64,000 nucleotides of DNA from Fusobacterium varium. GTDB lineage: Bacteria; Fusobacteriota; Fusobacteriia; Fusobacteriales; Fusobacteriaceae. Below the pieces are notes generated by a model, which searched no databases, had not been told where the DNA came from, and saw only the letters and a list, made by a program, of their open reading frames with translations. The stretch lies in assembly GCA_900637705.1 (NCBI GenBank), contig LR134390.1, positions 620,001 to 684,000 on the forward strand, read 5' to 3'. A program made the translations under genes and the position numbers. Positions 3,266 to 49,435 of the stretch are shown one piece after another; position 1 is the first letter of the stretch; each line of letters opens with the position of its first letter.

Positions 3266-3283
3266 TTTTGGGAGGTATAAATT

Positions 3284-3775: not shown

Positions 3776-3798
3776 ATAATTAAATATTTAAATAAGTG

Positions 3799-3831
3799 AG
3801 GAACCTTAAAATAATTAGGGTTCCTTTTTTT
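3799..3831 (+). terminator. Rho-independent terminator after the thioredoxin-fold gene
   Basis: An 11-bp stem (AGGAACCTTAA with TTAGGGTTCCT, one G-T pair) around a short loop is followed by a run of seven T. It separates the uvrA-ruvA transcription unit from the polysaccharide locus. Confidence 0.9.
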
Positions 3832-4249: not shown

Positions 4250-4273
4250 AAAAGTTCGCATTATTACAATAAG
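4250..4273 (+). repeat. Left inverted repeat of the invertible element
   Basis: 24 bases, identical to the reverse complement of 4447-4470. The identity stops exactly at both ends: the next bases are G on the inner side here, against A in the reverse complement of the partner. Confidence 0.9.
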
Positions 4274-4341
4274 GCGCCCTGTGAAAATGTTTTTAGATTT
4301 TTAATTCTAAAACTTTTTAGAATTATAGATTAGTATAGAAA

Positions 4342-4370
4342 ATGATACTACTAAAACGGAAGAATGTCAA
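4342..4370 (-). promoter_or_regulatory. Sigma70 promoter inside the inverted repeats, pointing left
   Basis: On the minus strand a perfect -35 box TTGACA (4370-4365) is followed, after exactly 17 bases, by TATCAT (4347-4342), one mismatch from consensus. Transcription would start near 4335 and leave the element through the left repeat into the gene-poor stretch 3832-4249. After inversion the boxes would sit at about 4350-4378 on the + strand, roughly 380 bases upstream of the first cluster gene. I found no comparably good promoter on the + strand between 4274 and 4763. Confidence 0.7.
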
Positions 4371-4446
4371 TACCAAAAAGGGTATAATTTGACATTTTTA
4401 AGAAATGTTAGAACGATTTTACTGAGATTTGGTGGCAAAAAGTTCT

Positions 4447-4470
4447 CTTATTGTAATAATGCGAACTTTT
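4447..4470 (-). repeat. Right inverted repeat of the invertible element
   Basis: 24 bases (begins CTTATTG, ends GAACTTTT), the exact reverse complement of 4250-4273. Confidence 0.9.
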
Positions 4471-4763: not shown

Positions 4764-6125
4764 GTGAAAAGACAAAGTCCAAAAATTTTAATGATAGGAT
4801 TACAATTTCTATTTTATTTATTAATAAACAGTTTTTTTAAAGTACCAGCCTACATTGCATATAACACTTTCTTTATCTACCTTCTTTTGAATATTACTAA
4901 AAAAATGCATTCCTTTAAAACTATACTCATTTGGGAGGAAGTTAAGAAACAACTTTATGTACATATAGAGTATTTAGCAATCATGATTATTAATGATATA
5001 GCTTTTTGTGGTGTTGAATATATACCTGTTCATTTAATAATAGGAGTAACATTTACGTTTTTTAATCTTTTGATAATTAGTCTTATAAGAAAAATTTTTA
5101 GAAGAACATTAGAAAAAAGGTTGATAATAATAGGAATAGGGCATACAGCAAGAGAACTTACTCAAGTAATAAAAGAGAATGATTTTACTATGTATAATCT
5201 TTTAGGTTATATAAGTGCAAATACTTTAAAAGGAATAAATCAAGATATTTTAATAGAGAAAAGTAAAATATTGGGAGATTGTAATGATATAGAAAGAATT
5301 ATTATAGAAAATAATGTGAGCGAAGTGATAATAGCCCTTCCATTAGCAGATAATAACCAAATGGCAGAAATAATAAATAAACTTGATGGAAAGGTAGAAA
5401 GAATAAAATTTACTCCAGAATTAAATGGAACATATACTTTCAATTCTGAGATAGAGGATTATGATGGAATAATGCTGATATCTTCATACAATGGAATGAA
5501 TAAAACAATAAATAGATTCCTGAAAAGAAGTTTTGATATTGTAGCTAGATTAGTAGGCTGTATAGTTTTAGGAATACTTTATTTAATATATGCACCAAAA
5601 ATAAAGAAAGATGGAGGAAAAGCAATCTTTTATCATACAAGGATAGGAAAGGATTTAAAGTCTTTTAAGATGTATAAGTTTAGAACTATGTATGTTGATG
5701 CAGAGAAAAGATTGGAAGAGATGTTATCTAAAGATGAAAAACTTAGAGAAGAATATTATAAGAATTTTAAACTTAAAGATGATCCAAGAATAACAGAAGT
5801 AGGAAAATTTTTAAGAAAAACATCATTAGATGAATTTCCGCAATTTATAAATGTAATAAAAGGTGAAATGTCATTTGTAGGACCAAGGCCAGTAGTACAA
5901 AAAGAAGTAGATATGTACTATGGTGAAGAAAATAGCAGAAAGATATTTATGGTAAAGCCAGGGATAACAGGAATGTGGCAGGCAAATGGAAGGTCAGATG
6001 TAGAGAACTATGATGAGAGAATAGCGCTGGATCTTTACTATATAAGAAACTGGTCATTATGGCTGGATGTAACAATAACAATAAAAACAATAAAAAATGT
6101 TATTGGGAAAAAGGGGGCATATTGA
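4764..6125 (+). CDS. Undecaprenyl-phosphate glycosyl-phosphotransferase (WbaP/WcaJ-type priming enzyme)
   Basis: This family transfers a sugar-1-phosphate from a nucleotide sugar to undecaprenyl phosphate and so starts O-antigen or capsule repeat units at the inner membrane. The 453-residue protein has hydrophobic N-terminal segments (about residues 8-110), a central Rossmann-like domain (RLIIIGIGHTARELTQVI, about 120-230) and a C-terminal bacterial sugar-transferase domain with KFRTMYVDAEKR, DPRITEVGKFLRKTSLDEFPQ, GEMSFVGPRP and KPGITGMWQANGRS. The GTG start at 4764 follows a GGAG/AGGGG site. It is the first gene of the cluster, as usual for priming enzymes. The sugar cannot be read from sequence. 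Confidence 0.9.
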   Translation: MKRQSPKILMIGLQFLFYLLINSFFKVPAYIAYNTFFIYLLLNITKKMHSFKTILIWEEVKKQLYVHIEYLAIMIINDIAFCGVEYIPVHLIIGVTFTFFNLLIISLIRKIFRRTLEKRLIIIGIGHTARELTQVIKENDFTMYNLLGYISANTLKGINQDILIEKSKILGDCNDIERIIIENNVSEVIIALPLADNNQMAEIINKLDGKVERIKFTPELNGTYTFNSEIEDYDGIMLISSYNGMNKTINRFLKRSFDIVARLVGCIVLGILYLIYAPKIKKDGGKAIFYHTRIGKDLKSFKMYKFRTMYVDAEKRLEEMLSKDEKLREEYYKNFKLKDDPRITEVGKFLRKTSLDEFPQFINVIKGEMSFVGPRPVVQKEVDMYYGEENSRKIFMVKPGITGMWQANGRSDVENYDERIALDLYYIRNWSLWLDVTITIKTIKNVIGKKGAY

Positions 6126-6975
6126 TGGAAAATAAGAAAATTTCAATAATAGTTCCTATATATAATGGAGAAATTTATATAAAAAATTAGTAGAAAAACT
6201 CAAAGAGCAAAAAGGTAATTTTTCTATTGAGTTAATAGCATTGGTAAGCTTTTCAAAAGATAAAAGTTTAGAAATATCAAAAGAATTATTTGATAAAGTT
6301 TTAGAGGTTAAAAAGTTTAATCATGCTAAAACAAGACATGAAGGAGCATTAATAGCTGAAGGGGATATATTAGTTTTTATAACACAAGATATACTACCTT
6401 ATGATAATAGTTGGTTAAAAGAATTAGTTAACCCCTTAAATGAAAACATAGTTGCAGCTTTTTCAAAACAAATAGCATATCAAGAACATTCAGAAATAGA
6501 GAAAATTATTAGAGAATTTAATTATCTTGATAAAAATAGAATTTCTAATAAGCAAAATGAAAAAGTAAATGGAAGAAAAAATATATTCTATAGTGATGCT
6601 TCTTCAGCAATACTAAAAACAGAATTTTTTAAATTAGGAGGGTATGATTTTTTTACTCCAACAAGTGAAGATGTATATTTAGCCTCTAAAATAATAAAAA
6701 ATGGGAAATCATTTATTTATACAGCTGAAAGTAAAATATGGCATTCACATCAATTATCTTTAAAGGAGACCTATAAAAGATATAAAGATATAGGAAAATT
6801 TGAAAAATTATTTGAAAAAGAAATAGATTTTTCAAAGACAGAGAGTGAAGGGAAAAAATTATTGATATATATGATAAAAGAATTAATAAAAAGAAGAAAA
6901 ATATTTGAATTAATATATCTACCATTTGATATTGGAACTAGATGGATAGGATATAAAGTAGGGAGAAAATTATGA
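6125..6975 (+). CDS. Family 2 glycosyltransferase, rhamnosyltransferase-like (frame broken near 6187)
   Basis: A GT-A fold transferase that adds a sugar from a nucleotide donor to the growing repeat unit. The ATG at 6125 overlaps the previous stop (TGATG). The first 21 codons (KKISIIVPIYNGEIYI) run into a stop; one extra A in the A6 run near 6180-6186 joins them to the rest (KLVEKLKEQ, then ARHEGALIAEGDILVFITQD, YDNSWLKELV, and the SEDVYLASKII region). The HEGA and TQD segments are typical of the rhamnosyltransferase-like branch of GT2. Joined length is about 283 residues. The break matches the homopolymer pattern seen in housekeeping genes, so the gene is probably intact. Confidence 0.8.
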
Positions 6976-8148
6976 AAAAACTTTTATATATATCAACTTT
7001 TTTACCAAGTAAAAAAAATAAATTTCCTTCTGCTGGGTCTAATACAACATTAAGTAATATAAAGAATCTTCATAAAAATGGTTATAAAATTGATTTTTGT
7101 TCTTTAGTTAATTTAAAAGAATATAAAGATAAAATGTTTTATGAAAATGAATGTATAGAAAATTTAATTATATTTAAAATCTCTATTTTTAAAAAATAGT
7201 TAATTTAATTTGGAATTTTCAATTACCAATTTTATGTTCTGTAAGATATGACAGGAGATTAAAAAAATTTTTAAAAGGAAATTCTCAAAATTATGATTTA
7301 ATTATTCTTGATTTTACTCAAAATATTAATTATTTGAAAGATATAAAGGAAACAAAAAAATATTAGTAGAGCATGATGTATCTTTTCAAGCTTTTGAAAG
7401 AAAAATGAATAATGAAAAAATTATTTGAGGAAATTATTTTATAGGTTTGAATATAAAAGATTGAAAAAATATGAAGAAACAATGCTTGGAAAATTTGATC
7501 TAGTTATAGTTCAGAATGATAAAGATTATAAACTTATAGAGGGAAAAAATAGAAATATTAAAATATTGAAACCATTTTTTAATAAATTTCTAATAGAGCC
7601 TAGAAAGAGAAATAAAGAAATAAATATTGGATTTTTTGGTGCTATGAATAGAGTTGAAAATGAAGAAGCAGTTATTTTTTTTCTGGATAAAATTTGGAAA
7701 AAAATTCAAAAAAGAATATTTATTTTTATATTATAGGAGCAAATCCAAGTGAGAAATTAAAAAAAGTAGTTAGTAATTATTCTAATGTTATTTTAACTGG
7801 ATTTATTGAAAAGGTAGAAGAATATTTTTCGATTTTGGATATAGGTGTAATTCCTTTGTTAAGAGGAGCAGGAATAAAAATAAAGACTGTAGAAATGTTG
7901 TATTCAGAAATTCCTATTGTATCGACTAAGATAGGTGTTGAAGGAATTTTAGTAGAAGATGAAAAAGATTATTTACTTGCTAATAGTGCTGAAGAATTTA
8001 TAAAAGAAATAAATTCATTAATAGAAAATAAAAATTTATATGAAAAAATAAAAAATAATCTTAAGGAAAAAAAGAAAAATTAATTATTGGAAAAACAATT
8101 TCTGAATTATTAATGTTTGAGGAGAATAATTATGATAATACGATCTAA
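6972..8148 (+). CDS. Family 4-type glycosyltransferase (several apparent frameshifts)
   Basis: Joining frames gives about 392 residues with a GT-B plan: N-terminal [12 protein letters not shown] and [19 protein letters not shown]; a middle ending [15 protein letters not shown] and [13 protein letters not shown]; the inter-domain [18 protein letters not shown]; and the donor-side [55 protein letters not shown]. The breaks (near 7193, 7360, 7418, 7715 and 8080) all fall in A/T runs. The start overlaps the previous gene by four bases. Five homopolymer breaks in one gene is a lot; real decay cannot be excluded. Substrate unknown. Confidence 0.7.
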
Positions 8149-9163
8149 AGCACCTTTAAGACTTGGGTTAGCTGGAGGAGGGACTGATGTATCACCATAT
8201 TGTGATGAATATGGTGGAGTTGTACTTAATGTGACAGTAGATATGTATGCCTATTGTACAATTGAGCCCACTGATGATAATAAAATAATTTTTAATTCAA
8301 CTGATAGACATGAAATGTTTGAGGGAGAAAGTAAGAATTATTTAAAAATAGATAATAATCTTATACTTCATAAGGGTGTATATAATAAAATTGTTGAAAA
8401 ATATAATTATGGAAAGCCATTATCTTTTAAAATGACAACATATTCAGATGCACCAGCAGGTTCGGGATTAGGGTCATCTTCAACAATGGTAGTAGCTATA
8501 ATAAAAGCATATATGGAATGGTTAAATTTACCATTAGGTGAATATGATATAGCTAATTTAGCATATGAAATAGAAAGAATAGATTTGAACTTAAGTGGAG
8601 GAAAGCAAGATCAATTTTCTGCTACATTTGGTGGATTTAACTTTATGGAATTTTATGAAGAAAATAGAGTTATAGTAAATCCATTAAGGTTGAAAAAATG
8701 GATAAAAAATGAAATAGAAAATTCACTTATTCTGTATTATACAGGAACTTCAAGAGAATCTGCAAAAATAATTGATGAGCAAATCAAAAATGTAAAAGAA
8801 AAGTCTGAAAAAAGTTTAGAAGGAATGCATGAATTAAAGGAATCAGCCATTGAGATGAAAAATGCTATTTTAAGAGGAGATTTTAAGAAAGTTGCTGAAT
8901 GTTTAAAAGAAGGCTGGGTATCTAAAAAAAAGATGTCAAATGCGATTTCCAATGATTTTATAAATGAAACTTATGATTTTATAATGAATAATGGTGGAAA
9001 AGCAGCTAAGGTATCAGGTGCAGGTGGTGGAGGCTTTATGATGATACTCTGTGATCCTAAAGAAAGATATGGTCTTATAGAAAAATTGAGGAAAAGAGAG
9101 GGAAAAGTTATATTAGCACAATTTTCAGAAAAAGGAGCACAGGCTTGGACTTTATATGAATAA
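8132..9163 (+). CDS. hddA: D-glycero-alpha-D-manno-heptose 7-phosphate kinase (GHMP family)
   Basis: HddA phosphorylates D,D-heptose 7-phosphate at C1 to give the 1,7-bisphosphate on the way to GDP-D-glycero-D-manno-heptose. Visible: the N-terminal GHMP segment [20 protein letters not shown], the ATP loop [17 protein letters not shown] (about residues 107-123), [15 protein letters not shown], and the C-terminal motif [15 protein letters not shown]. The ATG at 8132 follows GAGGAG with 7 nt spacing, so I prefer it over the in-frame TTG at 8117. The next two genes give the isomerase and the nucleotidyltransferase of the same pathway; the 7-phosphatase step is not represented nearby. Confidence 0.9.
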
Positions 9164-9176
9164 GAGGTGTATAGAA

Positions 9177-9837
9177 TTGAAAAAATCTACAAAGATATTA
9201 ATAGAAAATTTAATTGTGAGATTTCCTAAATTATCTAAAATTATCTAATTGTAAGGAAGAAATAGAAAATTCAATATTAGAAATAGTAAATTGCTATAAA
9301 AATAAAGGTAAACTGTTAATTTGTGGCAATGGTGGAAGTGCCTCAGATTCTTTACATATAGTGGGAGAACTTATGAAAAGTTTTGTACTTTCAAGAAAAT
9401 TAGAAAATAAATATATAGATAAAATTAAAAATATATTTCCACAAGAAGCAGAATATTTTATAAATAATTTACAAAGTTCATTACCTGCCATAGCTTTAGT
9501 GAGTGAAACTTCATTGATAACAGCTTATAGCAATGATAATAATTCTGAACTTGTTTTTGCTCAACAGGTATTAGGATATGGAAATGAAGGAGATATATTA
9601 ATAGCTATAAGCACATCTGGAAATTCAAAGAATGTTATTTATGCTTCTCAAATATCTAAAGTTAAAGGGATGAAAGTAATTTCCTTGACAGGGAAGCTTG
9701 GAGGAGAATTAAAAGATATATCAGATATAAATATAAATGTTGAAGAAAAAGAAACATATATTATTCAAGAGTATCATTTATCTATTTATCACACTTTATG
9801 TTTAGAAGTAGAAAATGAAATATTTGGGGAGGAATAA
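9177..9837 (+). CDS. gmhA: Phosphoheptose isomerase paralogue (SIS domain), frame broken by a 10-bp tandem duplication
   Basis: This family converts sedoheptulose 7-phosphate to D,D-heptose 7-phosphate, the HddA substrate. The SIS motifs LLICGNGGSASDSLHI and ILIAISTSGNSKNV are present. It is longer than the housekeeping copy at 38890-39465, with an insert carrying LSRKLENKYIDKIKN. The likely start is TTG 9177 after AAGAGGTG. The frame stops at 9250 because a 10-base unit (AAATTATCTA) is present twice in tandem, 9228-9237 and 9238-9247; removing one copy exactly rejoins PKLSNCKEEIENS. This differs from the homopolymer breaks elsewhere and may be a genuine off-mutation. Confidence 0.75.
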
Positions 9838-9840
9838 AAA

Positions 9841-10521
9841 TTGGAAGCAATAGTATTAGCTGGAGGTTTTGGAACAAGATTGAAAGAAGTGGTATCAGAT
9901 GTTCCTAAACCAATGGCTCCAGTGAATGGAAAACCTTTCTTAGAATATTTATTAAAAGATTTAAGTAAAAAAGGAATAAAGCATGTTATTTTAGCTGTTG
10001 GTTATAAAAAAGAAATAATAAAAGAATATTTTAAAAATAAATATGAAGATATAGAAATAACATATTCAGAAGAATTAGTGCCTTTAGGAACAGGGGGAGC
10101 TATAAAGAAAGCTTTAAAATTAGTAAAAGAAGAAGATGTTTTTATAGTTAATGGAGATACTTTCTTTGATGTTGATTTAAAAGGAATGAAAGAATTTCAT
10201 ACTGAAAATAAAAGTATCTTAACAGTAGCAGTAAAAGAAATGGAAAATTTTGATAGATATGGTTCTTTAGTAATAAAAGAAAATAGAATAATAGAATTTG
10301 AAGAAAAAAAGAAGAAAGATAAAGGGAAAATAAATGGAGGAATATATCTAATAAAAAAAGACTTATTGAGTAGGATGGAAAAAGAAAATTTTTCATTTGA
10401 AAAAGAGGTATTAGAAGATAAAAAAGTAGAAAAGTATTCATATGAAAGTGAAGGTTATTTTATAGATATAGGAATACCTGAAGATTATTTTAAAATAAGA
10501 AAGCAATTTGTTGTAATTTAA
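9841..10521 (+). CDS. hddC: D-glycero-alpha-D-manno-heptose 1-phosphate guanylyltransferase
   Basis: HddC makes the GDP-linked heptose from GTP and heptose 1-phosphate. The 226-residue protein has the nucleotidyltransferase loop VLAGGFGTRLKEVVSDVPKPMAPV, the GTGGAI segment and the metal-binding VNGDTFFDVDL. The start is TTG 9841, with a strong GGGGAGGAAT site upstream. Assignment as the guanylyltransferase of the D,D-heptose route rests on the hddA-gmhA-hddC order, which is a known conserved unit; sequence alone supports only the sugar-1-phosphate nucleotidyltransferase family. Confidence 0.85.
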   Translation: MEAIVLAGGFGTRLKEVVSDVPKPMAPVNGKPFLEYLLKDLSKKGIKHVILAVGYKKEIIKEYFKNKYEDIEITYSEELVPLGTGGAIKKALKLVKEEDVFIVNGDTFFDVDLKGMKEFHTENKSILTVAVKEMENFDRYGSLVIKENRIIEFEEKKKKDKGKINGGIYLIKKDLLSRMEKENFSFEKEVLEDKKVEKYSYESEGYFIDIGIPEDYFKIRKQFVVI

Positions 10522-10533
10522 AAGGAGAATTTA

Positions 10534-10590
10534 ATGGATATTTCTATAATAATTATTAATTATAATAAATTCAATAATAGAGAAAACTGA
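10534..10590 (+). pseudogene. Stub of a family 2 glycosyltransferase
   Basis: An ATG behind an AAAAGGAG site opens with MDISIIIINYNKFNN, the characteristic first beta strand of GT2 enzymes, then ends at TGA after 18 residues. No continuation in another frame is visible before the next gene at 10620. It looks like the 5' stub left when the rest of the gene was deleted or replaced. Confidence 0.6.
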
Positions 10591-10619
10591 AAGAATAAAA
10601 TATAGAAAAAGGATAAAAA

Positions 10620-11652
10620 ATGAAATATATATGTTTGTATTTTTGGGTAATTACAATTGGAATATTATATCTGAATAAAAATGATATGAATATAATAAGA
10701 TTAATATTTTTAATATTGACCTTATTTTCTGGGTTTAGATATTATGTTGGAGTGGATTATCCAATGTATATGAAAATATTTTCTTATATAAAAAATAACA
10801 TTAGTAATTATGAAGTCACGAGATTAGAAAAAGGTTATTATTTTTTAACAAAATTTATTGTTAATATAAATGGAACCCAACAACTAGTTTTTCTAATAAT
10901 AGCATTTTTTACAAACTATTTAATATATAAAAGTATAAAAAGAGAATCAAGCAATATATTGATGTCTACATTTATTTATTTTTTGGTAGGAGCGTATTAT
11001 TCTGCTGGGTTCAATTTAATTAGGTAAGTTATGGCAATTAGTATATTTTTTATTCAATTATTTTTATAAAGCAAAAAAAATAATGAAATATTTTTTAGGT
11101 ATAATTTTAGGAGGATTATTTCATAAAAGTTGTTTTTTATTATTACCATTATATTGGATATTAAATTTAAAATATAATAAATTTATAAAAATCATTTTAT
11201 TTTTTATTACAATAGCTTTTAATTTTTTATTGCCTAAACTATATGAAATATTAGGGTATGGTCAATATACAAAATTGAAATATGAAGCAACAACCAATTT
11301 TATAACATTATTTCTATTTTTTATTTTAGCATTATTAATAGAAATATTTTCAAAAAAAATTTTGTTAGATAATGTAAGTAAAAATATAAATTATTTCACA
11401 ATACTCTTAACTTTAACTATTTTTATTAATGAAAAAACATTTCCTACAATGAATCAAGTATTTGTACGAATGAGTTCATATTTTACTTTTTATTATATTA
11501 TTTTAATTCCACAATTATTGAAATCTGCAATAAAAAAATATTCACTAGCATTAAATCTAATTTTTTTTATTTGTATTTCAATTTTATATTTTAAAACCTT
11601 TTTATTACAGCTTCCAATTTATAAATATAATTTTATTTTATTTGAGTTTTAA
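10620..11652 (+). pseudogene. EpsG/Wzy-like polysaccharide polymerase with nonsense codon and frameshift
   Basis: A hydrophobic membrane protein of about 343 codons made of repeated transmembrane segments. Features of the EpsG family of putative polymerases are visible: RYYVGVDYPMYMKIF early, YYFLTKF, and the conserved NLIRQ motif, where the Gln codon is TAA (11025-11027) instead of CAA. In the same frame the protein continues VMAISIFFIQL, then a T5 run near 11065 shifts the frame; the rest (KYFLGIILGGLFHKSCFLLLPLYWIL) continues to 11652. The frameshift fits the homopolymer error pattern; the nonsense codon does not. If real, repeat-unit polymerisation by this gene is off. Confidence 0.7.
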
Positions 11653-11676
11653 TAAAAAAATAAGGAGATAATTTTA

Positions 11677-12746
11677 ATGAAGATAATAACATACTATTTG
11701 CCACAATTTCACGAAATTGAAGAAAATAATCTTTGGTGGGGAAAAGGTTTTACAGAATGGACAAATGTAAAAAATGGGAAAAAATTATTTAAAGAGCATA
11801 GTCAACCATTAAAACCATTAAATAATAATTATTATAATTTGCTAAATAAAGAAACAGTAGAATGGCAGAGTAAACTAGGAAATGAATATGGAATATATGG
11901 ATTTTGTTATTATCACTATTGGTTTAAAGGAAAAAAAATATTAGAGAAACCAGCAGAAAATTTACTTGAATGGAAGGAAATAAAGCAAAATTTCTGTTTT
12001 TGTTGGGCTAATCATTCTTGGAAAAAAACTTGGAATGGATTAAATGAAATCCTTATAAAACAGGAATATGGAGAAGAAGAAGATTGGCAAGAACACTTTA
12101 ATTATTTAGCCCCATTTTTTTTAGATAAAAGATATATAAAAATAGATGAAAAACCAGTGTTTATAATATACCAATCAGAAGATATTTTAAAGTTTGATGA
12201 AATGATAGATTTTTTTAATAAAGCATGTAAAAAAATAGGATATTCAGGAATTTATATAATAGAATCAAAAAATAATTTAAAAAATTTAAATTTTTTTTCA
12301 TCTAAAAGTTCTGCAATGGTGTTAAGGGAGCCTAATTGCTGTCTTAGTAAAAGAAATATTTTTCAAAAAGTTATTCAAAGATTAAAAAATAGTTTTTCAA
12401 AAAATTATTTATACTTTGTTCAAAAGTATAAATATGAAGAGTTTTTAAAAAAGAGTATAGATATATCTAATGAATTTTTAAATAAAAAAATATATCCAGG
12501 AATATTTACTGGTTGGGATAATACTTCAAGACATGGACGAAGAGGATATGTGATTGAAAGAAATACACCAAAGTTATTTAAAAAATATTTATTGGAAGAA
12601 AAAAAAATAATGAAAGAAAAAAATATAGATTATATTTTTTAAACGCTTGGAATGAATGGGCTGAAGGAATGTATCTAGAACCTGATGAAAAATTTAAATA
12701 TGGTTATTTAGAAGCTATAAAAGAAGTTATGGAAACAGAGGTATGA
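11677..12746 (+). CDS. WbsX-like polysaccharide protein (GH99-like domain), frame broken near 12640
   Basis: WbsX-type proteins occur in O-antigen and capsule clusters and are thought to be glycosyltransferases or GH99-like enzymes. The match is clear: an N-terminal [60 protein letters not shown], and a C-terminal [18 protein letters not shown] followed, after a one-base T-run shift, by [18 protein letters not shown] and YGYLEA. Joined length is about 356 residues. The SD is AAGGAG, 10 nt before the ATG. The rmlA ATG follows the TGA by one base. Confidence 0.85.
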
Positions 12747-12747
12747 G

Positions 12748-13611
12748 ATGAAAGGAATAATATTAGCAGGAGGAAGTGGAACAAGACTTTATCCAATAAC
12801 AAAATCAATATCAAAACAGATAACACCAATATATGATAAACCAATGATATATTATCCTCTATCAGTTTTAATGTTGGCTGGGATAAAAGATATCTTAATT
12901 ATTTCTACACCAAGGGATCTTCCTATGTTTGAAGAATTATTAAAAACTGGTTCAGATTTTGGCATATCTCTAAGTTATGCAGTACAGAAGCAGCCTAATG
13001 GTTTAGCAGAAGCATTTTTAATAGGAGAAAACTTCATTGGAAATGATTCATGTGCTCTAGTTCTTGGAGATAATATATTCTATGGTCATGGATTTACAGG
13101 AATGTTAAAAGAAGCTGAAGCAAGGAAAAAAGGAGCAACAATATTTGGATATTATGTACAAAATCCTAAAGATTTTGGAGTAGTAGAATTTGATGAAAAT
13201 AATAGAGCAATATCATTAGAAGAGAAACCAGAGAATCCAAAATCTAATTATGCAGTACCTGGATTGTATTTTTATGATAATACAGTAGTGGAAAAAGCTA
13301 AAAAAGTAAAACCTTCAAAAAGAGGAGAGCTGGAAATAACAACACTAAATGAAATGTATCTTAATGAAGGAATTCTAAATGTAACAAGCTTAGGAAGAGG
13401 GATGGCCTGGCTTGATACAGGAACACATGAAGCGCTTTTAGAAGCAGCAAACTATGTAAAAACAATTCAAAGTAGGCAAGGAGTAATGGTAGCCTGTCTT
13501 GAAGAAATTGCATATAGAAATGGTTGGATAACAAAAGAAAAAGTATATGAACTAGCAAAGCCATTGCTTAAATCTAAATATGGAGAATATTTGATGGATC
13601 TTATCAAATAG
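12748..13611 (+). CDS. rmlA: Glucose-1-phosphate thymidylyltransferase
   Basis: RmlA makes dTDP-glucose from dTTP and glucose 1-phosphate, the first step to dTDP-rhamnose. The 287 residues match the family length, with [22 protein letters not shown] at the N-terminus, [52 protein letters not shown] and [15 protein letters not shown]. It is followed 14 bases later by rmlC. rmlB is absent from the window and rmlD is only a remnant, so the dTDP-rhamnose route must be completed elsewhere or is defunct. Confidence 0.95.
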
Positions 13612-13625
13612 ATGAAGGGAAAGAT

Positions 13626-14237
13626 ATGAGTAAATTTAAAAAGATAGAAACAGGAATAGAAGGTCTATACATATTAGAACCAACTGTATTTGGTGATGAA
13701 AGAGGATTTTTTTTAGAGACATATAATAAAAAAGAATTTGAGGAAATTGGGATATTTGAAGAATTTGTACAAGATAATCATTCTAAATCTAAAAAAGGGG
13801 TATTAAGAGGGCTTCACTTTCAAACTAAACATTCTCAAGGAAAGCTTGTAAGAGTAATAAAAGGAGCCGTATATGATGTAGCTGTGGATATTAGAAAAGG
13901 CAGTCCTACATATGGAAAATGGTATGGAATAGAATTAAACGCAGTAAACAAGAAAATGTTTTTCATCCCAAAAGGATTTGCTCATGGATTCTTAACATTG
14001 GAAGATGAAACAGAATTTCAATATAAATGTACAGACTTATATCATCCTGAATATGATTCAGGAATAATGTGGAATGATAAAGATATAAATATTAATTGGA
14101 ATTTTGAAAAATATGGACTAAAGGAAGAAAATATGGTTCTGTCAGAAAAAGATAAAAAACATCAATCTTTTAAAGAATACACAAAAAAAATAAAAGAAAA
14201 TATATTGCTTATAGGAACAAATGAGCAGTTAGGTTAG
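13626..14237 (+). CDS. rmlC: dTDP-4-dehydrorhamnose 3,5-epimerase running into an RmlD remnant
   Basis: RmlC epimerises dTDP-4-keto-6-deoxyglucose at C3 and C5. The cupin is complete: PTVFGDERGFFLETY, FVQDNHSKSKKGVLRGLHFQ, GKLVRVIKGAVYDVAVDIRKGSPTY, FIPKGFAHGFLTL and the C-terminal YDSGIMWNDKDINI. The catalytic His sits in RGLHFQ and the Tyr in EFQYKCTDLYHP. After about residue 188 the frame reads directly into NILLIGTNEQLG, which resembles the first strand and glycine loop of RmlD, then stops at TAG. Either rmlC was fused to rmlD and the second half decayed, or the junction is a deletion scar. Confidence 0.92.
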   Translation: MSKFKKIETGIEGLYILEPTVFGDERGFFLETYNKKEFEEIGIFEEFVQDNHSKSKKGVLRGLHFQTKHSQGKLVRVIKGAVYDVAVDIRKGSPTYGKWYGIELNAVNKKMFFIPKGFAHGFLTLEDETEFQYKCTDLYHPEYDSGIMWNDKDININWNFEKYGLKEENMVLSEKDKKHQSFKEYTKKIKENILLIGTNEQLG

Positions 14238-14317
14238 GACTTTCAAAGCTTTTTGATAAGTTAGGTATAAAGTATACAGCTAAGATTTTAAGAAATGTAA
14301 AAAAGGAGAAAATAAGT
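14195..14317 (+). pseudogene. rmlD: Remnant of rmlD (dTDP-4-dehydrorhamnose reductase) N-terminus
   Basis: Codons for ILLIGTNEQLG, an in-frame TAG at 14235-14237, then DFQ and, one frame over, KLFDKLGIKYTA resemble the start of RmlD (Rossmann strand, glycine loop, first helix, second strand). The similarity ends about 40 codons in, and a different gene starts at 14322. Both a stop and a frame change are present within this short piece, so it cannot be active. Confidence 0.55.
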
Positions 14318-14321
14318 AGCT

Positions 14322-15624
14322 ATGGATAGTTTTCAAAAATTTTTTGAAAAAGAATATAGTAAAGCTCTCTGCTATAAAAAAGTTAATATTGCAGGAATTT
14401 TATTTATAGATTATTTTCAAGATTATTATGGAATTTGGGAAAGGGATGAGTTAAAAAAAAGAATAAAAAATATTATAAAATTTTTTTTGATATTATTACC
14501 CTTTAAAAAAAAATAAGATATAACATTTTAAATGAAAACAAATATTTTAAATTGTTATTCTTATTAAATAGCGATGTTGAAGCAATAAATAATAAAACTA
14601 AAATATTAGAAAGTTTAATTCCAAAATTTAAAAAAATGATATTTTACTAATTACTTTTAGCAAAAAAATATATTTAAAATATAAAAATCAAGATTTTAAT
14701 ATCATATATATAAGTTTTTGGAAATGGACATTAAAGTTCCAAATAATAAAAAAAGTTAAGTTTAAATATTTAATTAAGGCTTTAAATATATGCCATACAA
14801 TAGATGTTTATGAGAATATTTTAGAAAAATATAAAATTGACTTGGTTTTAACTACTCAAGATCATGAACCACTAGATTATTCTTTAACGATGTTAGCCAA
14901 AGAAAAAAAAATAAAGACAATTAGTCATCAACATGCACTTTTTATAGAGGATGCAGGATATGAATACTATTATTCAGATTATTTAATGCTTTGGGGAGAA
15001 AGAAGTATTGAATTTTTAGCTAGAAAAGCTATAAAAAAAAATTGTTTTATAGTTGGGACAAATAAATATAATTTTCTTCTACAATATAGGAAAATAAAAA
15101 AAAGAAAATTAGTTCTATGTATGACAAATAATGGAAATGAATATGCAGAGATGAAGTTAATAAATAAATTTAATGATTTACCTTTTGAAAATGGAGAAAA
15201 AGTAATAAAACTTCATCCTTCTATTGATAAAAAAGATTTTATTAAAAAATATAAAAATATAAAAAATAATATAAAAATTTCAATGGGATATAGTGAAATA
15301 ATAGAAGCAAAATATTTATTAACTTATCAAACTACTGCATTTTTAGATGGATTATTTTGTGGAGCTTCTGTTTTGAATATTTGCATTGATGAATTAAAAG
15401 AAAATAAAATTCCTTGTAAGATTAAATATGAAAATATTGATGAAGAATTATTAAAAAGAGAAAGTGACAAAATATACTTTGATAAAATTTTGAGATTACA
15501 AGAAGAAGAATTGAAAAAACAAATATTATATACAAACTCAGAAATAAGAGAGAAAAAAATTATTGACCAAATATTAGAAAAAAATTATATTAATTTTGAG
15601 GAGGAAAAAGAAAATGTTAAATAA
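14322..15624 (+). CDS. Polysaccharide-cluster protein, possible GT-B transferase (frames broken)
   Basis: I do not recognise a precise family. Joining frames across A runs (near 14515, 14637 and others) gives about 434 residues. The C-terminal half has a GT-B-like flow: DLVLTTQDHEPLDYSL, KIKTISHQHALFIEDAGYEYYYSDYLMLWGE, FIVGTNKYNF, LVLCMTNNGNEY, VIKLHPSIDKKDF and YLLTYQTTAFLDGL. This arrangement (returned name tag, HP motif, late TAFLD segment) resembles CDP-glycerol or polysialyltransferase-like capsule transferases, but that is an impression, not an assignment. The 3' end overlaps the pseB start by 11 bases. Confidence 0.55.
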
Positions 15625-16624
15625 TTTAACAATACTAGTAACAGGGGGAACAGGTTCTTTTGGAAATAAATTTATAGAAAGAGTTTTAGAAGATTATGAA
15701 CCTAAAAAAATAATTATATATTCAAGAGATGAATTTAAACAAGATTTGATGAAGAAAAATTTTATAGCTAAATATGGAGAAGAAAAAACTAATAAATTAA
15801 GATTCTTTATTGGAGATGTAAGAGATAAAGAAAGATTATATAGAGCCTTCAAAGATGTGGATTATGTAATACATGCAGCAGCTATGAAACAAGTTCCAGC
15901 TTGTGAATATAATCCTTTTGAAGCAATAAAAACTAATATACATGGAGCAGAAAATATAATAGAAGCGGCAATAGATAGAAAAGTAAAAAAGGTGGTAGCA
16001 CTTTCAACAGATAAATCGGTAAATCCTATTAATCTTTATGGAGGAACTAAATTAGTATCAGATAAACTTTTTATATCCGCCAATGCTTATTCAGGAGATA
16101 AAGGAACAATATTTTCAATAGTAAGATATGGTAATGTAGCAGGAAGCAGAGGATCAGTTATTCCATTTTTTAAACAATTATTAGCTCAAGGGAAGAAAGA
16201 ACTTCCTATAACAGATATTCATATGACTAGATTCTGGATGATATTAGATGATGCAGTAGACTTAGTGTTTAAAGCATTAGAAGAAGCAAAAGGAGGAGAA
16301 ACATTTGTATTTAAAAACCCTTCATTCTTAATTACAGAATTAGCTGAAGCATTAAATCCAAATGGAAGCATTAAAGAAGTAGGAGTAAGAGAGGGAGAAA
16401 AAATTCATGAAGTAATGATAACTAAAGATGACTGGAGAAATACTTACGAATATGAAGATTATTATATAATCTATCCTCATTTTGAATGGTGGGATAAGAG
16501 TAAATTTAAAGATGGAGGAAAATTAATAAAGGAAAATTGGGAGTATAGTTCAGGAGAAAATGAAATATGGCTAGATGCAGAGGAATTAAGAAATAGAATA
16601 GAGAAATTAAATATAAAATATTAA
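15614..16624 (+). CDS. pseB: UDP-GlcNAc 4,6-dehydratase/5-epimerase-like (PseB/CapD family)
   Basis: The family makes UDP-4-keto-6-deoxy-HexNAc, the first step to pseudaminic acid or related 6-deoxy sugars. Visible: the NAD loop VTGGTGSFGNKFIERVL, YSRDEFKQ, GDVRDKERLYRAF, HAAAMKQVPACEYNPFEAIKTN, the STDKSVNP motif, the Tyr-x3-Lys pair in LYGGTKLVSDK, and the C-terminal GVREGEKIHEVMI. The ATG at 15614 follows GAGGAGG with 9 nt spacing and replaces an in-frame upstream candidate. Length (336) is normal for the soluble PseB type. Whether the end product is a pseudaminic acid type sugar depends on genes that are broken nearby. Confidence 0.88.
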   Translation: MLNNLTILVTGGTGSFGNKFIERVLEDYEPKKIIIYSRDEFKQDLMKKNFIAKYGEEKTNKLRFFIGDVRDKERLYRAFKDVDYVIHAAAMKQVPACEYNPFEAIKTNIHGAENIIEAAIDRKVKKVVALSTDKSVNPINLYGGTKLVSDKLFISANAYSGDKGTIFSIVRYGNVAGSRGSVIPFFKQLLAQGKKELPITDIHMTRFWMILDDAVDLVFKALEEAKGGETFVFKNPSFLITELAEALNPNGSIKEVGVREGEKIHEVMITKDDWRNTYEYEDYYIIYPHFEWWDKSKFKDGGKLIKENWEYSSGENEIWLDAEELRNRIEKLNIKY

Positions 16625-16635
16625 GAGGGAAGAAA

Positions 16636-17474
16636 ATGAATATAGTCTGTATAATTCAAGCTAGAACAACTTCAAGTAGATTACCGAATAAGGTGTTATT
16701 AAACTTGCCATATAATGGAGATAAAACAGTTTTAGAACAAGTAATTAATAGAGTTAAAGAATCAAAATATATAAATAAAATTGTTGTGGCAACAACCATT
16801 AATGAGACAGATAATAAAATTGAAAAATTGTGTGAAAGTTTACAAATAAGTTGTTTCAGAGGTTCAGAAGATAATGTTTTATCAAGATATTATGAGGCTG
16901 CTACTAAATATAAAGCTGATTTAATAATAAGAATCACAAGCGATTGTCCATGTATTGATTATGAAATAATGGATAAATTAATAGAATTCCACTTGAATAA
17001 TAATAATGATTTTAGTTCTAATAATCAGATTCATAGTTTTCCGCATGGCTTAGACTGTGAGATAGTTAACTATAATGTTTTGGTAGAAGCTTTTAAAAAT
17101 GCTACTGAAAAATATGAAAAAGAACATGTAATGCCATACATATATATAAGTAATCCTAATAAATATAAACTAGGAATATTAAAAGATAAAAATAATAATC
17201 ATGATATAAGAATTACTTTAGATACAAAAGAAGATTATATACTTTTATGTCTAGTATATGATTTTTTATATGAAAATGATAATTTTTTTAATAAGGATAA
17301 AATAATAAAATTATTTCAAGAAAAAAGTTATTTATATGAAATTAATAAAAATATTGAACAAAAAAAGTATGTAAAGATTTAATTGAGGAAGTTGAAGAAG
17401 CTAAAAAGTTATTAAAAAAACAAGATTTAAATAAAGCATATAATTTTCTAATAGAAAATTGGGAGAAAAAATGA
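16636..17474 (+). CDS. Cytidylyltransferase of the SpsF/PseF type (C-terminal frame shift)
   Basis: The protein activates a sugar acid or related sugar, usually with CMP. It begins IVCIIQARTTSSRLPNKVLLNL, has TVLEQVINRVKESKYINKIVVATT, CFRGSEDNVLSRYYEAATKY and IRITSDCPCIDYEIMD, all typical of the family. The frame stops at 17380 but continues one frame over as DLIEEVEEAKKLLKKQDLNKAYNFLIENWEKK to TGA 17472-17474, overlapping the next ATG, so an indel near 17360-17372 is likely. Its place between PseB-like and NeuB-like genes suggests it activates a nonulosonate; CMP specificity is inferred. Confidence 0.8.
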
Positions 17475-18339
17475 AAAAAATTTGTATACTAGGCACAGAA
17501 GGAATGCTTGGAATGGAATTAGTTAATAATTTTATTTATAAATATAAAATAGTAGGAATAGATAAAATAATAACTAAAAATGAAAAAATTCAATTTTATT
17601 GTTTGGACTTATTAAAATTTGAACAATTGGAAAAGATATTTCAAATAGAAAGACCAGATGTAATTATAAATGTAGCAGCAATAGTTAATTTAGATATTTG
17701 TGAAAGAAATTTTGAATTAGCTAAAAAATTACATTGGGATTTAAGCAGATTTATAAGTGATTATTGTCAAAAAACAGAGTGTAAATATATTTATATATCA
17801 ACAGACTCTATTTTTGATGGAAAAATTGGAAATTATAGAGAATGTGATTCACCTAACCCAATAAATAATTATGCAAAAACTAAGTATTTAGGGGAACAAG
17901 AAGCTTTAAAAACTCCAGAGTCAATAATAATAAGAACAAATATTTATGGATATTCAAGTAACCAAAATTCTCTATTAAAATGGGGATATGATTCTTTGAA
18001 GAATGGAATAAAAATAAAAGGCTTTACAAATGTTATATTTAATCCTGTTTCAATAAAACAGTTAAGTGATGCAGTAGATATTTTATTAAAAAAGAGTTTA
18101 AAGGAATAATCAATATTGGAAGCAATTTAAATTTAAGTAAGTATGAATTTTTAATGATAATAGAGAAATTTTTGCAACTTGAACAAAGAGTAGAAAAATC
18201 AGAGTTAAATGATAATTCTTCATTTCTAAAACGTCCTAAAATTACTACTTTAAACACAGAAAAAATGAGAGAAATTTTAGGAAAAGAATACAAGTGTGAA
18301 GATGGAATTTATGATATTTTGAAGGAAGTGAAAAAATAA
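17471..18339 (+). CDS. RmlD-like SDR sugar reductase/epimerase (frame broken near 18100)
   Basis: An extended short-chain dehydrogenase with RmlD-like substrate-binding domain. It shows the nucleotide loop ICILGTEGMLGMELVNNF, RPDVIINVAAIVNLDICE, YIYISTDSIFDG, and the Tyr-x3-Lys pair in NNYAKTKYLGEQEAL, then IIIRTNIYGY and NVIFNPVSIKQLSDAVDIL. A stop after KKSLKE is followed one frame over by FKGIINIGSNLNLSKYEFLMIIEKF and a C-terminus ending at TAA 18337-18339; the shift lies in an A-rich run. Joined length is about 289. The true ATG is 17471 with a GGGAG site. Sits in the nonulosonate-like block; reaction unknown. Confidence 0.78.
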
Positions 18340-18340
18340 A

Positions 18341-19402
18341 ATGATGAAAATAAAAATTGGAAAAGAGATAATAACTCAAACCTCGAGGCCATATTTTATA
18401 GCTGACATAGCAGCAAATCATGATGGTAGCTTAGAAAGAGCATATAAATTAATTGAATTAGCAAAGGAAGCAGGAGCGGATGTAGCAAAATTTCAAAACT
18501 TTAAAGCTAAAACAATAGTAAGTAAAAAAGGTTTTGAAACAATGAAAGGGCAAATATCTCATCAATCTAATTGGAAAAAAACAGTATATGAAGTATATGA
18601 AGATGCTAGTATAGATACTACTTGGACTGAATTATTGAAAAAGAAATGTGATGAAGTAGGTATTGAATATATGACAAGTCCGTATGACTTTGAGTCAGTA
18701 GATTCAGTAGAAGAATATGTGAATGCCTATAAAATAGGTTCTGGCGATATTACTTGGATAGAAATATTAAAATATATAGCAAGGAAGAATAAACCAATAT
18801 TATTAGCAACAGGAGCTTCAACTTTAGAAGATGTAAAGAGAGCAATGGAAACTTTAAAAAATAATAAAATAATTTTAATGCAGTGTAATACTAATTATAC
18901 AGGAGAAAAAGAAAATTTTAATTATATTAATTTAAATGTTTTAAAAAAGTATAGAGAATTATATCCAGAAATTATTCTTGGTTTATCAGATCATACTCGT
19001 GGTTATGCTACAGTTTTAGGCGCAATAGCCTTAGGTGCAAATGTTATAGAAAAACACTTTACTGATGACAATAATAGAATTGGACCAGATCATAAATTTG
19101 CAATGAATCCTCAAAATTGGAGAGAAATGGTAGAAGCTTCAATGGATTTATATAACGCTTTAGGAGATGGAGAGAAAAGAATAGAAGAAAATGAGAAACA
19201 AACAGTTATAGTTCAAAGAAGAGGATTATATTTAAAAAAAGATATAAAGAAAGGTAAAAAAATAAGAAGAGAAGATTTGATAGCATTAAGACCAATGAAG
19301 AAAGATGGAATAGAACCATATCGAATGGAAAAAATCTTAGATAAAAAGGTAAAAAAAGATTTATATGAAGATAATTATTTAAAATGGGAGGATATTGAAT
19401 AA
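18341..19402 (+). CDS. N-acetylneuraminate/pseudaminate synthase family (NeuB/PseI/SpsE)
   Basis: The family condenses phosphoenolpyruvate with a 6-carbon amino sugar to make a nonulosonic acid. The 353 residues carry the NeuB TIM barrel: FIADIAANHDGSLERAYKLI, GADVAKFQNFKAKTIV, GIEYMTSPYDFESVD, YKIGSGDITWIEIL, ILLATGASTLEDVKRA, MQCNTNYTGEKENFNYINL, LGLSDHTRGYATVLGA, VIEKHFTDDNNRIGPDHKFAMNP. A C-terminal SAF (antifreeze-like) domain follows (RGLYLKKDIKKGKKIRREDL). Complete and uninterrupted. Whether it makes Neu, Leg or Pse cannot be told here; the PseB-like neighbour favours the 6-deoxy types. Confidence 0.88.
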   Translation: MMKIKIGKEIITQTSRPYFIADIAANHDGSLERAYKLIELAKEAGADVAKFQNFKAKTIVSKKGFETMKGQISHQSNWKKTVYEVYEDASIDTTWTELLKKKCDEVGIEYMTSPYDFESVDSVEEYVNAYKIGSGDITWIEILKYIARKNKPILLATGASTLEDVKRAMETLKNNKIILMQCNTNYTGEKENFNYINLNVLKKYRELYPEIILGLSDHTRGYATVLGAIALGANVIEKHFTDDNNRIGPDHKFAMNPQNWREMVEASMDLYNALGDGEKRIEENEKQTVIVQRRGLYLKKDIKKGKKIRREDLIALRPMKKDGIEPYRMEKILDKKVKKDLYEDNYLKWEDIE

Positions 19403-19404
19403 TA

Positions 19405-19946
19405 ATGATCTCTGGAAGAAAAATTGGATTAAAAGCTATTGAAAAAACGGATCTTTCACTTTTATTAGAGTGGAGAAATAATGAAAATTATAGAAAATTC
19501 TTTAGAGAATATAGAGAACTAAACTTATATAATCAAGAAAAATGGTTTGAAGAAAAAGTAGTCAATGGCAAAGATACTTTAATGTTTTCAATAATAGATT
19601 TAAAAACTTTAGAGATTATAGGTGTGTGTGGATTATGTTATATAAATTGGATAAATGGAAGTGCTGATTTATCTTTATATATTGGAAAAGATAATGTTTA
19701 TATAGATGAAGTGGGATATGCAGAAGAAAGTTGTCAATTATTGTTTAAGTATGGATTTAATGAATTAAGGCTAAATAAAATATGGACAGAAATATATTTG
19801 ATAGATGAAAAAAAATAAAATTATATAAAAAAATTGGAATGAAAATTGATGGTATTTTGAGAGAAAATTATTTTTATGAGGGGAAATACATAGATTCTTA
19901 TATATTTTCTATACTTAAATCAGAATTTAAAACTAAAATTTTATAA
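19405..19946 (+). CDS. GNAT acetyltransferase (PseH-like), frame broken near 19815
   Basis: A small N-acyltransferase of the GNAT fold. RKIGLKAIEKTDLSLLLEWRNNENYRKFFREYRE is the usual N-terminus of sugar-modifying GNATs; IIGVCGLCYINWINGSADLSLYIG, GYAEESCQLLFKYGFNELRLNKIW follow. At an A8 run near 19809-19816 the frame stops; one base restores IKLYKKIGMKIDGILRENYFYEGKYIDSYIFSIL to TAA 19944-19946 (about 180 residues). Its place right after the NeuB-like gene fits PseH, which acetylates the 4-amino group before condensation. This is inferred from context. Confidence 0.75.
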
Positions 19947-20059
19947 TAATAAATAATTAGAAGATTATTAATTAATAAAAGGAATACTTTTAATTTTATA
20001 AATATAGCTAAGGATTAAAGATTTAAAAATGAAACAAAAAAATTAAAATTATATTATTT

Positions 20060-20225
20060 ATATATATTTAATGCCATATTATAAAAAAATTATGGTTATA
20101 AAAAAGGAGATTTTCCAGTAGCAGAAGATTATTATTCAAGAGAAGTAAGTATTCCTATGTATCCAACATTAACTAAGAAAGAGTTAGATTATATAGTAAA
20201 AACAATAAAGAATTTCAAAAAATAA
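20060..20225 (+). pseudogene. C-terminal remnant of a PseC-like aminotransferase
   Basis: No start codon or upstream body remains. Codons from about 20060 read PYYKKNYGYKKGDFPVAEDYYSREVSIPMYPTLTKKELDYIV (one indel in the A run near 20085), ending at TAA 20223-20225. This is the standard end of DegT/DnrJ/EryC1 aminotransferases, and the PYY...GYKKGDFPVAE wording is close to PseC. The catalytic lysine and cofactor regions are absent, so the gene is dead. The stretch 19947-20060 before it is AT-rich and shows nothing else. Confidence 0.7.
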
Positions 20226-20236
20226 GGAGATTAACT

Positions 20237-21363
20237 ATGAAATATTGTAAAAAATGTCTTCAACCTGATACAAGACCAGGAATAAAATTTAATGAAGAAG
20301 GAACATGTTATGCTTGTCTTTATGAAGAAGAAAAGAAAAATATAGATTGGATATCAAGAGAGAAAGAACTAAAAGAAATTGCAGAATGGGCTAAAAAAAC
20401 AGCTAAAGGAGCATATCATTGTGTAATAGGAGTAAGCGGAGGAAAAGATAGTAGTTTTCAGGCAGTATATGCTAAAGAGAAATTAGGATTAAATGTTTTA
20501 TTGGTAAATAGTGAACCAGATAAAATAACAGAAATTGGAAAACACAACATTGAAAATTTAATAAATCAAGGTTTTGATATTATAAAGATGAGACCTAATC
20601 CTAAAATAATAAAAAAATTGGTAAAAGAATCATTTTATAAATATGGAAATCCTATAAAACCTACAGAATATCCTTTGTGGACATCAGCATATATTATAGC
20701 AGACAAGTTTGATATTCCTCTCATTATTCAAGGAGAAAATGCAGCTTTAACTTTAGGAGTTGTTAATACTGGATTAGGAAATGATGGAAATGCATTAAAT
20801 GTAAATGAGGGAAATACACTAGCAGGAGGAAATGCAAGTGATTGGGTAGATGAAGATATTAGTTTAAATCAATTATATATGTATCAATTTCCTGATAAAA
20901 AAGATTAATAGATAAAGGAATAAAAGCAATATATTTACAATATTATGTAAAGGAATGGTCTCAAGTATATAATGCAGATTTTTCTATAGCCAGAGGATTA
21001 TTTGGAAGAGCAACAGAAGACTTGCATGATATAGGAAGATACAGAAGATATACAGCATTAGATTCAGATATGCAAATAGTTAATCAAATGATTAAATATT
21101 ATAAATTTGGATTTGGGTTTGCAACAGATGAAGCTTGTTATGATATAAGAGAAGGAAGAATATCAAGAAAAGATGCAATATGGCTAGTCAATGAATATGA
21201 TGGTAAGTGTGGACAAAAATATATAGAAGAATTTTGTAAATATATAGATATAACATTGGAAGAATTTTGGAAAGTAGTAGATAAACATGTAAATAAAGAG
21301 TTATTTGAAAAAGATGAAAATGGAAAATGGATACCTAAATTTAAAATTGGAGAAAATATGTAA
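20237..21363 (+). CDS. N-acetyl sugar amidotransferase (WbpG/PseA-like), frame broken near 20898
   Basis: These enzymes place an amidino group on a sugar acid, as PseA does for acetamidino-pseudaminate or WbpG for acetamidino-mannuronate, using an ATP pyrophosphatase fold. The N-terminus CKKCLQPDTRPGIKF with a second CYAC forms the usual zinc-like cysteine set; VIGVSGGKDSSFQAVYA is the PP-loop. The segment LIIQGENAALTLGVVN and the C-terminal DLHDIGRYRRYTALDSDMQIVNQMI, EACYDIREGRISRKDAIWLVNEYDGKC are family features. A missing A in the run near 20893-20899 breaks the frame; joined length is about 375. No glutamine-amidotransferase partner (HisH-like) is beside it. Confidence 0.85.
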
Positions 21364-23027: not shown

Positions 23028-24043
23028 TGGAAGACAGAGAAATATTATTAAGTTTTTGTATCCCAACATATAAAAGGAAAAAAAGAGTGATTGAGTGTAT
23101 TAATGAAATTCAAAAAATTCAAGATGGAAGAATAGAAATAATGATATGCGATAATCATTCAGAAGATGGAACGAGAGAAGCAATATTAGAATTACAATTA
23201 AAAGATAAAAGAATTAATTATATAGAAAATCAAGAAAATATAGGTGCAGTTGCAAATATATCAAAAGTTTTATCAGAAGGAAATGGAAAATATCTTTATT
23301 TAATAAGTGATGAGGACTTTATAAATATAGAATTTATATTAAAACTTTTAAATGAAAAAATATTAGAAAATGAGAAATATAATATTATTTTAGGTTCTGT
23401 ATATGATATTGTTAAAAATAAATATTATCAGAAGTATACCACTAGATACGAAAAAAATATTTCAGAAGTTGGAATAAAAATATTAACTGAAAAAAACTAT
23501 ATGTCTGGAATTATTTTTAAAAAAAATAAAATAAATTTTAATATTTTAAATAAATATGAAAAAGAAAATGCAAATCTATATCCAAATATACTAGCGTTAT
23601 TAACTATGATAATTGAAGGGGAGTTAAAAGTTTTTTCTGAAAATATATGTTTTATGAGAAATGAAGAAAAAACAACAGCAACTCAAAAACTTGGAAATAA
23701 TGAAATAAAATATTGGTCACCTAAAGGTAGGATTGAACAATTAAAATTTATGAATATGTTTATACAAAATGAAATTCAAAGTAGTAAAGTTCAAAAGATT
23801 TTATATAAAATTTATGCTCAGAAATATTCAGTGATGCATAATGGGGATTTATTTAAAGGTAATTTTATGGGTGCAGATTATAGAAATCAAAAAAAATATT
23901 TTTATAATGAAGTGATTAAAATAGAAAAAATAAAAAATTATTTTATTTTATATAATTATATAAATTCCGGAAAAAATATTTTGAAAAAAATATTGCCTAA
24001 TAGTGTAATCAATTACTTAAAAAAAATAAAAAGAGGTTATTGA
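23027..24043 (+). CDS. Family 2 glycosyltransferase
   Basis: A complete 338-residue GT-A enzyme. The N-terminus LLSFCIPTYKRKKRVIECI, the acidic ICDNHSEDGTREAI, and the metal site LYLISDEDFINIEFI are visible; TRNE-type C-terminal features are weak. The ATG at 23027 overlaps the stop of the ABC gene (TAATG). The C-terminal part is Lys/Asn rich with no clear domain. Donor and acceptor cannot be predicted. It is the first gene of the module lying between the two ABC copies. Confidence 0.85.
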   Translation: MEDREILLSFCIPTYKRKKRVIECINEIQKIQDGRIEIMICDNHSEDGTREAILELQLKDKRINYIENQENIGAVANISKVLSEGNGKYLYLISDEDFINIEFILKLLNEKILENEKYNIILGSVYDIVKNKYYQKYTTRYEKNISEVGIKILTEKNYMSGIIFKKNKINFNILNKYEKENANLYPNILALLTMIIEGELKVFSENICFMRNEEKTTATQKLGNNEIKYWSPKGRIEQLKFMNMFIQNEIQSSKVQKILYKIYAQKYSVMHNGDLFKGNFMGADYRNQKKYFYNEVIKIEKIKNYFILYNYINSGKNILKKILPNSVINYLKKIKRGY

Positions 24044-24705: not shown

Positions 24706-24708
24706 AAG

Positions 24709-25482: not shown

Positions 25483-25493
25483 TTGGAGGAAGA

Positions 25494-26555: not shown

Positions 26556-26568
26556 AAGGAGAATGAAT

Positions 26569-27693: not shown

Positions 27694-27704
27694 GGAGTTT
27701 ATAA

Positions 27705-31851: not shown

Positions 31852-31941
31852 AAATTGAGATAAAAATTTAATAAAAATAATTTTGCTATACTTATGTTTA
31901 CTTAATTTTTATATTAAATTAAGAAATAAATGGAGAAATAA

Positions 31942-36159: not shown

Positions 36160-36170
36160 TGGAGAACAGC

Positions 36171-49367: not shown

Positions 49368-49380
49368 AAATATTACCTCC

Positions 49381-49432: not shown

Positions 49433-49435
49433 GAG

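Follow-up and report, generated by a model that had tools for sequence, protein, structure and literature searches.

Can a 221-bp element upstream of a capsular polysaccharide (CPS) operon in Fusobacterium varium turn that operon on and off by inverting the promoter it carries? The element lies at 4250-4470 of a 64,000-nucleotide stretch (contig LR134390.1, positions 620,001 to 684,000; the window), in a genome assembled as a single contig of 3.30 Mb and here called G000. It is very probable that the element is an ON/OFF switch for the polysaccharide operon, recombined in trans, and that it belongs to a set of at least 24 such switches. We judge the invertible promoter to be real and probably functional; it is OFF as assembled and forms part of an extensive network in gut Fusobacterium.

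The mechanism that we propose is that two inverted sites with the non-palindromic 6-bp overlap TTACAA enclose a segment with one sigma-70-type promoter, and that a tyrosine recombinase acting in trans, for which the protein P0001 is the candidate, would recombine the sites and flip the segment. As assembled, the promoter is directed away from the operon (OFF), and a flip would turn it toward the gene for the priming transferase, about 0.4 kb downstream (ON). The at least 24 switches share one site type and would be insulated in part by switch-specific overlaps, most of the others stand before autotransporter genes, and a HU/IHF-like pair encoded at the operon end may act as cofactor or feedback regulator.

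Repeats, recombination sites and promoter of the element

The features in and around the element are as follows.

3798..3826, + strand: intrinsic-terminator-like hairpin after the upstream thioredoxin-like gene, the sole terminator-like site in 3000-6000
4250..4273, + strand: left inverted repeat
4254..4279, + strand: left 26-bp recombination site of presumed extent, GTTCGCATTA-TTACAA-TAAGGCGCCC, overlap 4264-4269
4342..4370, - strand: promoter TTGACA-N17-TATCAT, pointing away from the CPS operon (OFF)
4386..4416, no strand assigned: conserved block AATTTGACATTTTTAAGAAATGTTAGAACGA, which the ON state would put upstream of the promoter
4442..4466, - strand: right recombination site, 25 bp here and 26 bp in relatives, overlap 4451-4456
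4447..4470, - strand: right inverted repeat

A preliminary description of the window had reported perfect 24-bp inverted repeats around 173 bp, and this is confirmed: the repeats are 100% complementary, with a spacer of 173 nt. Dinucleotide shuffling of the gap (3776-4763), done 500 times, gave longest perfect inverted repeats with a mean of 10.7 and a maximum of 16, as compared to 24 observed. The promoter on the minus strand (4370..4342), said to face away from the cluster, does so, and is the best promoter match within 3000-6000, with 11 of 12 positions. It had also been called the only strong promoter in a gap of 930 bp. The gap before the operon is actually 988 bp. The runner-up in the gap (TTGACA-N18-AAAAAT, + strand, 4512) has a poor and unconserved -10. 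Inverted repeats that flank a promoter beside its target operon are the arrangement of an inverton. The hairpin at 3798..3826, terminator-like by sequence, would isolate the CPS operon from upstream transcription. An Rfam scan of the window gave no match, and a conserved terminator of the OFF transcript in the left flank was considered and rejected, its folding being weak.

The repeats are parts of a longer near-palindrome of 26 bp, GTTCNCNTT-(6-bp overlap)-AANNNGAAC. In a second copy of the element in G000 they match at 23 positions, and the 24th match in the window exists because the inner arm of the right site is one T shorter (GTTCTC-TTATTGTAA as compared to GTTCTCTTTATTGTAA).

Switch modules, site family and targets

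The network, its autotransporter targets, the HU/IHF-like pairs and the recombinase candidate could not have been revealed to the earlier reader by the window alone. The CPS switch module is present in 11 copies in G000, G001, G002 and G007, four sister species, and each copy precedes a CPS-type operon. The second copy in G000 is found at 2005096-2005414, with 93% identity over the element, and G001, G002 and G007 have two to four copies each. The copies sit at different chromosomal positions, and the two in G000 differ upstream, with uvrA-ruvA-thioredoxin in the window and proA/proB-like genes at the second copy. The homology spans the left flank, the element and the downstream operon, and covers window 4211-4516 in most copies. 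An alignment of the 11 copies shows no variation in the -35, and every -10 reads TATTAT or TATCAT. No further copies were found in viral contigs or plasmids.

The preliminary description had suggested a search of related Fusobacterium genomes for both orientations, and one of the 11 copies provides the other orientation. In G002:C1:912837-913055 the core is reversed and both flanks are in the conserved order, and therefore the promoter faces the CPS operon. This copy is direct sequence evidence for inversion, across related loci rather than in one strain. A second case is a switch before an autotransporter gene, G007:C1:958543, which faces its target and has a core reversed relative to its paralogs between collinear flanks. 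Both orientations between conserved flanks are thus seen across related loci or species.

The site is not restricted to the CPS modules. Allowing at most one mismatch, the site pattern gave 50 matches per strand in G000, as compared to 2 and 1 for the reversed control; the sites are near-palindromic and were therefore counted on both strands. Exact matches number 35-37 in G000, 26 in G002, 31-32 in G007 and 26-29 in G001, as compared to 0-1 in eight other Fusobacterium species. Site pairing gives at least 24 switches in G000 (a set of 20 pairs, the window and three more). Insertion sequence ends were considered as the source of dispersed 58-bp matches and rejected; the matches are parts of other switches.

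For the four genomes, we compared the central 6 bp of site pairs that had been selected on the arms alone. They were identical in the inverted sense in 47 of 48 pairs and in the direct sense in none (0/48), and re-pairing within genomes gave an agreement of 14 ± 3. The overlap differs from switch to switch: it is TTACAA for CPS and ATACAT, ATAGAT, ATATAA or others elsewhere. Arms around a short, non-palindromic overlap that matches within pairs and differs between switches are the signature of a tyrosine recombinase, and the switch-specific overlaps would in part block recombination between switches. Together with the conserved promoter, the flipped G002 core and the CPS-type operon that always follows, they bear out the invertible promoter in the OFF position that had been proposed for this locus. 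The sole mismatched pair, G000:C1:1564473-1564649, has the overlaps ATACAT and ATCTAT, and is perhaps a hybrid of two switches, produced by recombination between them.

Most of the other switches are located 40-900 bp before autotransporter genes encoding 800-1800 amino acids (aa). In a different group, which has an ATATAA-like overlap, the switch is followed immediately by a lone HU pair and there is no surface gene; all five of these face the HU genes (ON): G000:C1:3056156-3056330, G001:719361, G002:1388331, G007:2467943 and G007:3341058. G001 is F. varium Fv113-g1, for which 44 autotransporters were described; two rose significantly in D-MEM (Dulbecco's modified Eagle medium) and six were relatively highly expressed (PMC5720691). 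Neither inversion nor a recombinase turned up when that paper was searched for them.

Some switches have other surroundings. At G007:C1:488180-489074 the CPS switch is followed directly by a CPS-type HU pair and the polysaccharide genes are missing. In G002 a further switch is located right after the CPS HU pair, before a membrane O-acyltransferase-like gene (C1:271343-271510 and 2372032-2372199). The homologous switches G000:C1:885563-885765 and G002:C1:165899-166130 precede a chain-length-determinant-like gene, which TTGACA-N17-TATAAT faces in G002; in G000 the promoter match is gone.

Candidate recombinase and HU/IHF-like genes

That the recombinase would lie outside the window was also foreseen, and the best candidate is indeed encoded 266 kb from the element. 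G000 has eight tyrosine recombinases above cut-off and one serine recombinase (PF00239, 456 aa); the sites fit a tyrosine recombinase rather than a serine master invertase of the Mpi type, known from Bacteroides. P0001 (G000:C1:358177-358773) is a protein of 198 aa that comprises just the catalytic domain (Phage_integrase, 78.9 bits) and has the R, H-x-x-R, H and Y motifs, and its residues 39-194 align with the catalytic part of XerC-like/XerA. Orthologs at 75-91% exist only in the four site-bearing species, the next best match being at 51%, and this co-occurrence makes P0001 the most probable enzyme of the candidates. The gene adjoins adhesin genes in G000, G001 and G002. A search for P0001 among named genomes gave a distant match only. 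The P0001 matches on contigs C2 and C3 of G001 have the same coordinates as those on plasmids AP017969 and AP017970, which identifies G001 as F. varium Fv113-g1. A second gene of the P0001 type, G000:C1:1140660-1141127, has five in-frame stops and is intact in G001, G002 and G007; it adjoins small lipoprotein/FadA-like genes and a HU pair.

The operon downstream of the element, which ends in the HU/IHF-like pair, has the following genes.

4764..6125, + strand: opening gene of the CPS operon, for a priming sugar transferase (Bac_transf, CoA_binding_3)
6241..37884, + strand: remaining co-directional polysaccharide cluster, with glycosyltransferase, GHMP kinase, SIS domain and ABC transporter among the genes tested
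37897..38208, + strand: HU/IHF-like protein of alpha type, 103 aa (PF00216, E 2.7e-14; PDB matches HU and IHF-alpha), present at 11/11 CPS loci
38198..38479, + strand: HU/IHF-like protein of beta type, 93 aa, its gene overlapping that of the alpha type (PF00216, E 1.9e-8)
38511..38765, + strand: small helix-turn-helix (HTH_3) protein after the HU pair, a profile match made in the window only

The two HU/IHF-like proteins, P0005 and P0006, pass the Bac_DNA_binding profile with 53.6 and 34.9 bits (cut-off 22.4), and the nearest solved relatives of the alpha-type protein are HU and IHF-alpha. Near-identical pairs end all 11 CPS operons, with a mean identity of 96% for alpha and 92% for beta, and each type forms a pure clade across the four species. 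Autotransporter operons carry other HU pairs, many of them having HU/IHF-like genes in tandem, and every switch type is accompanied by its own HU type. The four site-bearing species have 48-58 HU/IHF-like genes per genome, as compared to 4, 4 and 15 in three relatives. Of the non-canonical HU clusters among the matches listed for G000, 16 of 23 are found within 6 kb of a switch, where 2.1 would be expected. The relative with 15 HU-like genes, G003, is a Fusobacterium without this site type and may carry another switch family.

IHF assists the inversion of the fim switch in E. coli. It is conceivable, and we propose it tentatively, that the operon-encoded pairs are cofactors or feedback regulators specific to the switch type, and that the pair made from an ON operon acts on its own switch or on others, so as to hold or reset it or to keep the remaining switches OFF, which would let few surface structures be displayed at once.

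Alternative explanations and known systems

Several observations weigh against a working switch. The right site in the window is short by one arm base, 25 as compared to 26 bp, and a real lesion there would hamper the switch. The CPS copies are in the window orientation (OFF) in 10 cases of 11, and all 18 autotransporter switches of G000 with a recognisable promoter point away from their gene, so that inversion may be a rare event or have a strong bias. Nearly all surface switches are thus OFF, with exceptions in the relatives that include G007:C1:958543. The flips were seen by comparing related loci or species, and not at one locus within one strain. The recombinase assignment depends on co-occurrence in what is probably a single clade of four species, so that it is one evolutionary correlation and not proof, and plasmid homologs of P0001 (in F. 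varium, F. polymorphum, Cetobacterium and F. hwasookii) had no matching sites near their genes. From the short right site, and from the OFF state of all CPS and autotransporter switches with recognisable promoters in G000, it could be argued that the switch was ancestrally invertible and has decayed, being locked OFF by the base loss, by the second recombinase gene having become a pseudogene with its five stops, or because the enzyme is not made. We consider this unlikely, since P0001 is intact and the other CPS copy in G000 has intact arms and overlaps. The missing T may also be a homopolymer error; a sequence error is suggested by the shortening of another homopolymer close by and by the split of uvrA into two frames.

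If the enzyme were not P0001, it could be another of the eight tyrosine recombinases of G000, such as a Xer-type enzyme or P0002. The latter (189 aa) is likewise a solo catalytic domain and is encoded beside a canonical HU gene, but its orthologs extend to species without sites (10 of the 12 Fusobacterium genomes have one), whereas close P0001 orthologs occur only with sites; another enzyme therefore seems the less likely solution, although it is the strongest of the alternatives. It is improbable that both orientations are functional, with the leftward promoter making a regulatory or antisense RNA and the switch choosing between two transcripts instead of ON and OFF. In the away-facing orientation the promoter looks strong and is conserved, but the hairpin in the left flank is weak (z about -1.3 to -2), and there is no constant upstream target because the upstream neighbour differs between loci. 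The preliminary description had worried about a miniature inverted-repeat transposable element (MITE), whose terminal repeats would enclose a chance outward promoter and whose copies would be insertions rather than switches. The repeat does recur at about 24 places in the genome, but there it forms pairs of recombination sites that precede operons for surface structures, with overlaps that match within pairs and differ between them. The homology also extends well beyond the repeats and into the operon, and in two cases the core is reversed in situ while its flanks are conserved, which makes a MITE hardly credible.

The reading as an ON/OFF switch has counterparts in other bacteria. In Bacteroides fragilis, promoters flanked by inverted repeats reportedly stand before several CPS operons as many dispersed switches, served in trans by Mpi. 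The Fusobacterium system is alike in these respects, its putative recombinase also being encoded elsewhere. Mpi, however, is a serine recombinase with another site, whereas the Fusobacterium sites have a tyrosine-type 6-bp overlap and most targets are autotransporters; furthermore, Bacteroides operons begin with UpxY/UpxZ and the Fusobacterium operons end in HU/IHF-like pairs. The promoter of a surface structure is also flipped at fimS of E. coli, by FimB and FimE, solo tyrosine recombinases of about 200 aa, in the size range of P0001. There the cofactor is the housekeeping IHF and the enzymes serve one or a few switches, in contrast to Fusobacterium, where the switches number at least 24 and many HU/IHF-like genes are encoded within operons. 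In Clostridioides difficile we know of no HU genes in switched operons. The UpaE element of uropathogenic E. coli reportedly has a related solo recombinase and an autotransporter as target (PMC6083910). RecV of C. difficile is a single tyrosine recombinase that serves several distant switches, with other sites and targets (PMC5903667). An inverton beside the cps1 locus of Akkermansia muciniphila, a member of another phylum, has ON and OFF orientations and is conserved in the genus (PMC13343947); both orientations were shown there by reads and PCR, and here they come from genome comparison.

The principle is known, and the setting at the phylum level and the link to operon-encoded HU/IHF-like pairs are new. 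In a full-text search of the openly licensed literature, neither invertible promoters nor a coupling to HU of this kind turned up for Fusobacterium, in agreement with the earlier reader, who knew of none at this locus. If the switch reading is true, gut Fusobacterium of the F. varium group control capsule-type polysaccharide and large repertoires of autotransporters by DNA inversion, which would help to explain the apparent silence of most surface genes in culture. It would also mean that a single genome assembly per strain misreports the expressed surface structures, and would connect one recombinase family and a defined 26-bp site, in a way open to test, with the puzzling expansion of HU-like genes.

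Three minor observations concern the rest of the window. The uvrA gene (114-2668) is in two overlapping frames, which suggests a sequencing indel or a real frameshift, and several short adjacent open reading frames in the CPS cluster resemble this situation. At 49380-49433 there is a perfect, AT-rich inverted repeat of 19 bp with a 16-nt loop, unrelated to the switch sites.
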